Origin: a bacterium
GTDB taxonomy: Bacteria > Patescibacteriota > Minisyncoccia > Phycocordibacterales > Phycocordibacteraceae
DNA: 38,593 nt
Direction: 5' to 3'
Assembly (NCBI GenBank): GCA_021784815.1
Contig: JAJYHK010000015.1
Location: 1-38,593, forward strand
In this document: positions 3,689 to 14,605 of the stretch, piece by piece
Layout of the letters: every line of letters starts with the position of its first letter
How positions within the stretch are numbered: position 1 is the stretch's first letter
Program-made: the position numbers and the translations under genes
Notes under the pieces: model-generated
Database searches by the model: none
Told to the model about the DNA's origin: nothing
The model's input: only the letters and a program-made list of their open reading frames with translations

Positions 3689-3697
3689 TGGTATAAT
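3689..3697 (+). promoter_or_regulatory. Extended -10 promoter for the structured RNA
   Basis: TGGTATAAT matches the extended -10 consensus (TGnTATAAT) exactly. No good -35 is visible, which extended -10 promoters do not need. Transcription would begin near 3704, about 17 nt before the closing helix of the structured RNA. Confidence 0.6.
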
Positions 3698-3703
3698 TAC
3701 AGT

Positions 3704-3930
3704 GTTCCTTGAGAGGAAAATAGTGCAGTCCGCGCACCGAATGCGGACCGTGCGCGCCTCCCGAAGAGGGTAGGCAAACTGGGAAATCTGCCAGATGGCG
3801 CGCACGACTGATCGCAAAGCGGTTGGGAGATTTCATTCAGCCTTAGGGCTGGATCAAAACTCCGAGCCGCTTTTGCCTAGTAGTCGTTTGCGGAACCGGC
3901 GAGGAGATTAGCCGGTAACGCACAGCACTA
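3704..3930 (+). ncRNA. Highly structured RNA of unknown class, or 5' leader of the next gene
   Basis: Perfect helices seen directly: closing stem TAGTGC (3721-3726) / GCACTA (3925-3930); GTCCGC (3728-3733) / GCGGAC (3743-3748); GTGCGCGCC (3750-3758) / GGCGCGCAC (3797-3805), enclosing GGCA (3773-3776) / TGCC (3789-3792); GACT (3806-3809) / AGTC (3882-3885); AAAGCGG (3816-3822) / CCGCTTT (3867-3873); GGAG (3826-3829) / CTCC (3860-3863); ATTCAGCC (3835-3842) / GGCTGGAT (3847-3854), with one T-G pair; TGCG (3889-3892) / CGCA (3919-3922); ACCGGC (3895-3900) / GCCGGT (3911-3916), whose loop displays GAGGAG. Nearly the whole 210 nt folds into one closed multibranch domain ending 2 nt before ATG 3933. 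I do not recognise it as tmRNA, RNase P, SRP, 6S or a common riboswitch. Confidence 0.65.
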
Positions 3931-3932
3931 CT

Positions 3933-4319
3933 ATGACCAACAAAAAGAAAACGAGCGGGGCCTATAACCGATTGCGCGCTCCCACCCAATGCGCGCTCTG
4001 GAAGCATCCGGAGCTCGTGAACGGGCCGATCTCAGGGCCGTTCGAACTGCTCGAAACGTACTACAAAGACAGCCACTTCTGGCGATACCTCCTGCGCTGC
4101 CGCGAGTGCGGCCAGCGCTACTTCTTTGAGTTCTACGAAGAAGTCGACTGGGTCGACGGCGAGAATCCCCAGTACAGCACCTATCTGCCGGTGGAAACCG
4201 ATGCAGAGATAGCGAAGCTGCGGAAGACCACGCGGACCGATCTTCTCCTATTCGCGCCGCGGCTCCAGAAAGACTTTCCGAAGGGCGCCAAGGCGCCGAC
4301 GCTCCGCTGGGTGCGGTAA
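3933..4319 (+). CDS. Conserved-looking protein of unknown function with a CxxC knuckle
   Basis: 128 aa, basic N-terminus. Central LLRCRECGQRYFFEFYEEVDW resembles half of a zinc ribbon (CRECG), followed by acidic and aromatic residues; a second CxxC is absent, so zinc binding may need dimerisation or other ligands (Cys/His near QCALWKH). Probably cytoplasmic. The ATG lies 2 nt after the closing helix of the structured RNA, and no Shine-Dalgarno is present at normal distance, the only purine stretch being in a hairpin loop 22-30 nt upstream. Expression may therefore depend on that RNA. No function is assigned. Confidence 0.7.
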   Translation: MTNKKKTSGAYNRLRAPTQCALWKHPELVNGPISGPFELLETYYKDSHFWRYLLRCRECGQRYFFEFYEEVDWVDGENPQYSTYLPVETDAEIAKLRKTTRTDLLLFAPRLQKDFPKGAKAPTLRWVR

Positions 4320-4356
4320 AGAAAAGCCACTCCGACGCGTTTGTGCGTAAGAGTGG
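4314..4356 (-). terminator. Convergent terminator hairpin
   Basis: CCACTC (4327-4332) pairs with GAGTGG (4351-4356), with inner ACGC/GCGT. The minus-strand tail (CTTTTCTTT) is T-rich, giving a good terminator for the small minus-strand gene 4386-4556; the plus-strand tail is poorer but the hairpin could serve both convergent genes. Confidence 0.55.
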
Positions 4357-4385
4357 TTGAGTTGGAAAAGAGGCAGCTGACAAGG

Positions 4386-12959: not shown

Positions 12960-12992
12960 AACAACAGCCCGGGCTATGCCCGGGCTGTTGTT
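12960..12992. terminator. Bidirectional terminator between parB and rel
   Basis: AACAACAGCCCGGGC, loop TAT, then the exact complement: a 15-bp perfect stem. Downstream bases are T-containing in both directions (TTGTTTACC on plus; TTGTTTTGC on minus). The last base of the rel stop codon (12992-12994) touches the stem. Confidence 0.85.
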
Positions 12993-14605
12993 TACCGCTT
13001 CACGTCTTCGTGAGTTGGCGTTGGGTGTTTAGCAGCGCGCCGCCGTCGCCGGGGTTTATCTGGCTCGGTCATGCCAAGCGCGAGACGAATATGCTTGCGA
13101 GCGAGCGCAGTCTTCACGTGGTCGAGCCATTTGGGCGAAGGGTGCGCGCTCTCGCGGCGAAGCACCTCGACGATATCGCCATTATTGAGCTTGGTGTCGA
13201 ATGATACGAACTTGCCGTTCACCTTCGCGCCCTGAAGGTGGTCGCCGAGGTCCGTGTGAATCGCATAGGCGAAATCGATGGGTGTTGAGTCAATTGGCAG
13301 ATCGACTACGTCGCCCTGTGGGGTAAAGACAAAGACGCGCCGCGAGAAGAAGTCCTCTTTAAGGCCCTCGACGAATGCTTGGGATTCGGCAATGATTGCA
13401 TGTGCATCGGCGAGCTCGACCAGCCAGTGCGGAGATTCCGCTGAGCTCTGATCCGCATTCTTAGTTGCGCTTGAGACGTGCATGAGCGATGGAATGAGCG
13501 AGCGCATCCAGGAAAAGGAGAGCGCGGAAAAACGGCTCCGCTGTGTCGAGCGGTCGAGCTGCTCGATTTCTTTGCCGAGGAGCTTGTACGACATGTGCGA
13601 GGCAACGCCGAACTCCGCGTGCCGGTGCATCTCCTCGGTGCGAATCTGGATCTCGACGATGCCGGCCTCGCTTGTCATGACGGTCGTATGGAGCGACTGG
13701 TAGCCGTTCGGTTTGGGGAACGCGATGTAATCTTTAAACTCGCCCGGAAGCGGTCGATAGAGCGCATGCACGATGCCAAGGGCGACGTAACAGTCCTCAA
13801 GTTTGGGAACAACGATGCGCAGTGCCGCAATGTCATGGATGAGCGTAATGTCATCGTGCTTGCGGATGAGCTTCTGGTGAAGGCTCCAGAGGCCTTTGAT
13901 GCGAATACTGGTGCGGAAATCTTGCAGCCCTTTCTTTACGAACTCTTTCCGGAGCTCCTTTTGTACTTTCGCAAGCCCGATCTCGGTTTCTTTCGTTTTC
14001 GCTTTTCGCAGCTCGAGCGTGTGCGCGTATGCGTCGGGATCGATGTGCGGGAAGACGAGATCCTCGAGATCGCGCTTCACCTGGCCCATACCAAGCCGAT
14101 CCGCAATAGGCGCGTAGATTTCAAGCGTCTCAAGTGCAATGCGTCGGCGCTTGTGCGGCGGCACGTGCCCGAGCGTTTGTGTGTTGTGATATCGGTCCGC
14201 GAGTTTGACGATAAGCACGCGAATATCAGATGCGGTCGCGACGAGCAGCCGGCGCAGGCTCTCCGCATGGCGTTCGGCGCCGCGATATTTATGGTGGCCC
14301 AGTTTTGTAACGCCGTCGACTATGAAAAGCACTTCCTTTTCGAATTCCTTTTCGACCTCCTCGCGCGAGGCGCGTGCGTCCTCAACCGTGTCGTGGAGAA
14401 GGCCGGCAGCAATGGTAGTTGCGTCCATGCCGAACTTCGCAAGTGTCTTCGCAACGGCTGCAGGATGAACGAAATACGGTTCGCCCGAATAGCGGGTCTG
14501 GCCGTCGTGCGCTCGCTGCGCAAATTCGTACGCGCGCCTTACGAGATCGCGGTCCTCTTCGGCCGTTGTCCGCATTGCGCCCAGGATGTCCTTGAGCGGC
14601 GTCAT
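12992..14605 (-). CDS. rel: Rel/SpoT-type (p)ppGpp synthetase/hydrolase, short form
   Basis: 537 aa, against about 700 for usual long RSH proteins. HD hydrolase domain with RYSGEPYFVHPAAVA and LLHDTVEDA (HD at 71-72); synthetase domain with GEFKDYIAFPKPNGYQSLHTTV and VEIQIRTEEMHRHAEFGVASHMSYK; TGS domain (about 418-480, RVFVFTPQGDVVDLPIDSTPIDFAYAIHTDLGD). After a short basic tail it ends, without the zinc-finger and ACT domains that sense the ribosome and amino acids. Both activities look possible from the motifs. TATCAT (plus 14614-14619) ends 8 nt before the start codon. Confidence 0.93.
   Translation of the reverse strand: MTPLKDILGAMRTTAEEDRDLVRRAYEFAQRAHDGQTRYSGEPYFVHPAAVAKTLAKFGMDATTIAAGLLHDTVEDARASREEVEKEFEKEVLFIVDGVTKLGHHKYRGAERHAESLRRLLVATASDIRVLIVKLADRYHNTQTLGHVPPHKRRRIALETLEIYAPIADRLGMGQVKRDLEDLVFPHIDPDAYAHTLELRKAKTKETEIGLAKVQKELRKEFVKKGLQDFRTSIRIKGLWSLHQKLIRKHDDITLIHDIAALRIVVPKLEDCYVALGIVHALYRPLPGEFKDYIAFPKPNGYQSLHTTVMTSEAGIVEIQIRTEEMHRHAEFGVASHMSYKLLGKEIEQLDRSTQRSRFSALSFSWMRSLIPSLMHVSSATKNADQSSAESPHWLVELADAHAIIAESQAFVEGLKEDFFSRRVFVFTPQGDVVDLPIDSTPIDFAYAIHTDLGDHLQGAKVNGKFVSFDTKLNNGDIVEVLRRESAHPSPKWLDHVKTALARKHIRLALGMTEPDKPRRRRRAAKHPTPTHEDVKR

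Follow-up and report, generated by a model that had tools for sequence, protein, structure and literature searches.

This locus raises the question of whether the region between a promoter-like box and the start codon of a small open reading frame encodes an undescribed structured RNA and, if so, whether that RNA acts in cis as a leader or stands alone. The window (the whole stretch of 38,593 nucleotides that was analysed) carries a promoter-like extended -10 (TGGTATAAT, 3689-3697, + strand) and an ATG at 3933-3935; between them, TAGTGC (3721-3726) lies opposite GCACTA (3925-3930), and GAGGAG occupies 3901-3906. An earlier note had placed all of these landmarks at these positions, and all were confirmed there. 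It had also described extensive helices from promoter to start codon, which held. RNAfold analysis of 3703-3935 (233 nt) gave -113.9 kcal/mol, whereas dinucleotide shuffles averaged -76.9 (z -9.01); none of the 200 shuffles was as good. The minimum free energy structure included a 6-bp closing stem and inner helices.

Homologues were identified by searching 148 related genomes at the DNA level, which gave two more copies (L002 in genome G074 and L003 in G048), and by a motif pattern, which gave one copy in an IMG/VR contig (L012). A covariance model (R1) was built on these three copies and that of the window. With this model and its successors, R2 and R3, the set came to 20 full-core copies besides that of the window (21 sequences in total) plus a partial one, scattered over the Patescibacteria. 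Copies found with the covariance models numbered four in 106 genomes of the family, three in a phylum sample of 380, eight in 297 genomes of the order, eight in 384 of the class and four in 241 of another class; the genome of the window is counted wherever a sample contained it. The RNA is rare and scattered, and is present in at least two classes of Patescibacteria. Further searches, in one more order and around the pair of copies that diverge most, yielded no new copies. No homologues were found in phage and plasmid collections (one short chance match), and no RNA lay alongside 54 viral-contig genes resembling those of small alarmone hydrolases (SAH). Outside Patescibacteria genomes, the IMG/VR contig was the only source. 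In the partial copy (L115/L027, genome G707), the 5' half of the RNA is replaced, and the terminator hairpin, the tail and the HD gene are kept; this locus may be a chimera or a product of decay.

The homologues showed a conserved order of P2, a three-way junction of P3, P4 and P5, and a long hairpin with a U-run. P2 (GTCCG/CGGAC, 3728-3748, +) had compensatory changes in five of five pairs across the 21 sequences. The P3 helix (3749-3758 with 3797-3806, +) encloses P4 and P5 to form the junction (3749-3806), with nine of ten pairs compensatory and 92.8% paired. The P4 hairpin (CCC/GGG, 3760-3770, +) had two of three pairs compensatory and is followed by a conserved UAGG. The P5 hairpin (3773-3792, +) carries the loop GGAAAUCUG on a stem that covaries, seven nucleotides of which are missing in the window copy. 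The junction nucleotides (UAGG, GGGAAAUCUG and CCA-AWG) were highly conserved. The P3/P4/P5 junction could be a sensor domain; this role is inferred. A pairing of GGGAGA with the UCUCCC of P4 was rejected by eye, because that strand of P4 changes together with its partner within P4. A GACTA/TAGTC stem around the terminator, visible by eye in many copies and in none of L021, L039 and L040, was not retained as part of the core.

Across the 21 sequences, the model structure of 51 pairs was 95.6% paired, and 33 of the 51 pairs showed changes on both sides, a number that none of 500 shuffled or slid versions approached. This alignment was fitted to the model and is hence biased in its favour, and two checks were added. 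A structure-free MAFFT alignment showed 22 of 41 pairs to be compensatory and recovered P3, P4, P5 and the long hairpin; P2 was not included in the RNAalifold consensus of this alignment. In the second check, which followed R-scape in using a tree-based null, three pairs were significant among all column pairs at E<0.05 (in P2, P5 and the terminator) and none outside the structure. When the E-values were rescaled by hand to the 51 proposed pairs, approximately 12 were significant, in all five helices. The substitutions in the homologues preserve the helices, and the element is a member of a structured RNA family.

Analysis of the whole window with Rfam 15 at the gathering threshold returned three tRNAs only and no match over the element, and 3690-3940 had no match at E<=10. 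There was no gathering-score match over the element in the window, in L002, L003 or L012, or in eight other loci, and the core of eight other copies gave only a chance mir-75 match at E<=5. The claim of an undescribed structured RNA thus held, with no Rfam match over the element and with helices preserved by substitution. The checks named in the earlier note gave, respectively, the fold z-score above, the absence of an Rfam match over the element, and compensatory changes in the homologues found with covariance models. The closing stem (3721-3726/3925-3930) was seen in the window's minimum free energy structure, but failed as a conserved part of the family: by eye, it was readable only in the window and, in a different form, in L002, and it was rejected as a family feature on its absence from the homologues. 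Its 3' strand also has an alternative pairing in the window (3878-3884/3927-3933). An RNA on the opposite strand was likewise rejected; the minus-strand model matches were shadows of the palindromic hairpin, and many G-U pairs fit the plus strand only.

The earlier note had missed the terminator-like hairpin with its U-run, the pairing between the P5 loop and the terminator arm, and the alarmone-hydrolase operons, often in defence islands, that follow the RNA. The hairpin spans 3816-3874 (+), its U-run included, and has approximately -33 kcal/mol in the window, where the run is UUUU; in most homologues it is U5-U7. The corresponding hairpins of the homologues, also with U-runs, ranged from -26 to -37 kcal/mol (-53 in L037). 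A terminator-like hairpin and U-run (U4-U7) were present in all copies examined, the UUUU of the window being weak, and termination itself is inferred. The 5' arm, GGUUGGGAGAUUUC (3821-3834, +), was nearly invariant in the homologues, and its AGAUUUC (3828-3834) is the complement of GAAAUCU in the P5 loop (3783-3789, +), allowing an alternative pairing or pseudoknot. Within this nine-nucleotide loop, GAAAUCU was identical in 19 of the 21 copies, and AGAUUUC was invariant in the same 19. In L037 the segments read GAGGUCU and AGAUCUC, and all seven positions still pair. In L041 they read GAGACCU and AGGACCC; five positions pair, two of them via double changes, and two are mismatched. The loop/arm covariation therefore rests on two divergent copies, the remainder being invariant.

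The two arms of the hairpin differed in their variability: the 5' arm segment had only six deviating positions and the facing 3' segment 41, while the apical part varied to a similar extent on both sides (41 and 36). This asymmetry would not be expected for a plain hairpin, and the 5' arm therefore probably has a second role besides pairing with the 3' arm. When AGAUUUC was blocked in folding, a hairpin of -14 to -31 kcal/mol remained, with the lower stem beside the U-run. Since this lower stem survives, loop/arm pairing need not prevent termination, and control of termination by this pairing is an inference from sequence alone.

The position of the element was consistent with a leader. In nearly all homologues, a TATAAT-like box precedes the core by 26-33 nt; single boxes of this kind are weak evidence in AT-rich DNA, and the weight lies in their constant position. 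Transcription is predicted to start near 3704, approximately 30 nt upstream of P2. Of the first dozen loci, most had an open reading frame beginning 108-116 nt after GGGAGATTT, and the first genes were unrelated; this spacing was looser in more distant copies. In the main group, the sequence 3' of the U-run was conserved and folds as a hairpin with a purine-rich, GGAG-like loop. In the window, this post-terminator hairpin extends from 3878 to 3933 (+), up to the start codon (-28.2 kcal/mol), with GAGGAG in its apical loop. The purine-rich loop lies approximately 25-26 nt from the AUG. The placing of GAGGAG in the loop of the last hairpin, as first described, held; at approximately 26 nt from the ATG, it is too distant to be an ordinary Shine-Dalgarno sequence. 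In L016, L023, L024, L027 and others, the U-run pairs with an A-rich stretch before the AUG. A cis-acting leader and a stand-alone ncRNA had both been offered at the outset, and the leader is favoured because of its own promoter-like box, the near-fixed distance to the starts of unrelated reading frames, and the conserved element between terminator and AUG. The element is very likely a cis-regulatory leader, as inferred from these features; its transcript has not been observed.

The first or second gene behind the RNA encoded an HD_4-type protein (stand-alone RelA/SpoT-type) in 15 of the 21 loci with sequence beyond the RNA, a count that includes L115, with its partial RNA, and L108, with a divergent HD protein. 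The other 6 of 21 had no intact SAH gene. The clients matched HD_4, spoT_relA and RelA/SpoT hydrolase domains, with PDB matches to 7qoc (E 3e-45) and to MESH1 (5vxa, E 2e-23). Of the five clients scanned, four scored above the PF13328 cut-off (E 1e-11 to 6e-18) and one, that of L026, below it. The active- and metal-site residues, H...HD..ED...D...N, were invariant in the client alignment (A9). By domain, structure match and active-site residues the main client is a small alarmone hydrolase of the MESH1 kind, its activity and substrate being inferred. The compounds hydrolysed by an SAH described in the literature, (pp)pGpp, pppApp and NADPH (PMC9765508), suggest candidate ligands for the leader. 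The association was one-way: in an order sample of 128 genomes with approximately 20 stand-alone SAH genes, the RNA lay within 1.5 kb at only 1 of 21 HD loci examined, so that the RNA predicts the enzyme and not the reverse. A second stand-alone SAH gene, without the RNA, was noted at G000:C12:19428-19952. The window also encodes a long RelA/SpoT-type protein of 537 aa (12992-14605, -), which suggests that the organism probably makes (p)ppGpp.

The window's own client gene (3933-4319, +) encodes a protein of 128 aa, which over residues 9-126 shares 53% identity with the C-terminal region of the L002 HD fusion; it is a module that is fused to an SAH-type enzyme in that relative. Homologues of the 128-aa protein without the RNA were present in other genomes of the genus and in one alphaproteobacterial MAG, and the family was rejected as the constant client of the RNA, six other relatives being without it. 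An AlphaFold model of the protein (mean pLDDT 59.8) was too weak for a structure search. Elsewhere, the 93-aa protein of L034 was similar to the C-terminal region of the HD protein in L039, and in L016 and L022 the HD gene followed a gene of the 103-aa family represented in L003. Small proteins that stand alone behind the remaining copies are in many cases modules of the same operons. The client proteins were modular, and several contained paired Cys residues of the zinc-ribbon type. An inverted repeat (CCACTC...GAGTGG, 4325-4360) lies just past the 128-aa gene in the window and is possibly a transcript terminator.

Several copies of the RNA adjoined type I, III or IIG restriction-modification genes. 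The 21 RNA-bearing genomes contained approximately 14 N6-methyltransferase genes, of which five lay within 10 kb of the RNA, compared with approximately 0.3 expected under random placement by our own estimate; none was found in the window's genome. Large serine recombinases and DUF2779 proteins recurred near the RNA, and an rve transposase lies downstream in the window. Related DUF2779-type proteins were noted beside the RNA and the SAH operon in L096, L101, L102 and L107, that of L107 having a Cas4-like N-terminal part. Two loci have a LOOT RNA (RF03000) that shares the strand of the new RNA and lies 1-3 kb upstream of it (L012:7852-7981; L097:11034-11152, the same place as L023:2534-2652). 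A SAM riboswitch (RF00162; L021:2530-2618) was identified less than 1 kb downstream of another copy.

The sequence comparisons establish the structure of 3703-3935, its conservation, its place between a promoter-like box and a reading frame, and its tie to SAH operons. On balance, we lean towards its being a member of a new 5' leader family of Patescibacteria that switches by attenuation, the switching being inferred. Transcription attenuation is considered the most likely mechanism, with the chances for and against it evenly divided. A small-molecule ligand is less likely than not, and binding of one is hypothetical. In the proposed mechanism, transcription would start approximately 30 nt upstream of P2, and the P3/P4/P5 junction would form first. 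The emerging GGUUGGGAGAUUUC would then pair either with the P5 loop (AGAUUUC/GAAAUCU) or with the 3' arm, the latter giving a terminator-like hairpin ahead of the U-run. Binding of a signal to P3-P5 would shift the choice of partner, and this choice would decide transcription of the SAH operon or, in the window, of the 128-aa partner module. The readthrough RNA would form the second hairpin up to the AUG, which may also limit translation. The most economical guess for the signal would be an alarmone or related nucleotide, because the main client probably degrades such compounds. A bolder reading, which is possible, is a new riboswitch class of Patescibacteria that would sense an alarmone or other nucleotide signal and, through exchange between loop and terminator arm, switch on a dedicated alarmone-hydrolase operon in anti-phage islands.

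Among other explanations, the leader may be recognised by a protein (the SAH protein, a partner module or a phage factor), giving autogenous or infection-triggered control. This possibility is supported by the many loci in restriction-modification islands and by the modular clients with their zinc-ribbon-type Cys pairs; against it, the invariant, mostly single-stranded nucleotides of the three-way junction also fit an aptamer. It is also possible that the element is a stand-alone small RNA of a defence island, ending at the U-run, in which the loop/arm pairing would hold permanently as a pseudoknot; the downstream gene would depend on readthrough or be expressed independently. The RNA has its own promoter-like box and terminator-like hairpin, and the U-run is also explained; the islands carry recombinases, a LOOT RNA lies nearby in two loci, and L037 (L111) has no open reading frame close behind. 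However, sequence and structure are conserved from U-run to AUG in the main group, and the distance to the start codons of unrelated genes is near-constant. A peptide-coding attenuator, in which ribosome stalling on a translated leader reading frame selects the structure, is very unlikely. An ATG or GTG is present at one position of P2 in about half of the copies, but the start is missing in the window, L020, L022, L023 and L024, and the leader peptide was rejected, since neither start nor stop codons keep a constant position. Chance structure in GC-rich DNA, for which the 59% G+C and long palindromic hairpin of the window copy could speak, is all but excluded by the fold z-score of -9, the covariation and the recurrence before the same gene family, and is refuted by the homologues.

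We return to the preferred reading, an attenuator-type leader, and to its known counterparts. Leaders of the ppGpp and PRPP riboswitches are linked to purine and alarmone metabolism and can control transcription termination; they belong to ykkC subtype 2, with ligands as described (PMC6031431). The new RNA resembles these in being a leader linked to such metabolism, but differs in helix order, conserved sequence, lineage and client genes, and the ykkC subtype 2 covariance model gave no match (window at E<=10, eight other cores at E<=5). With orphan riboswitch and cis-regulatory motif candidates it has in common a structured leader, covariation, recurrent clients and a candidate expression platform; it differs in lying outside Rfam 15 and in its unusual link to restriction-modification islands. 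As in intrinsic-terminator attenuators whose helices exclude each other (trp, T-box and S-box), a strand ahead of a U-run can pair with either of two partners. In the new RNA, however, the alternative partner is the loop of an upstream-junction hairpin, the lower terminator stem is left uncovered, and there is no conserved leader peptide. The clients share the H...HD..ED...D...N residues and match solved chains of MESH1/SAH enzymes (e.g., XccSAH, PMC9765508), whereas they are frequently fused to C-terminal modules of various kinds and lie behind the new leader. No description of this RNA family was found in the literature searched, most subscription papers being beyond reach. A structured attenuator-type leader is familiar as a kind, and a family with this architecture and these clients is likely to be new.

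Little is known of gene regulation in the Patescibacteria, a very large group of which most members are uncultured. The results give this group an RNA family that is well supported, has a defined structure and serves a clear client, namely an alarmone-hydrolase operon that is often found in mobile defence islands. The sequences and models are sufficient for direct ligand screening, and the family points to a connection, open to testing, between signals of nucleotide stress and genes against phages.
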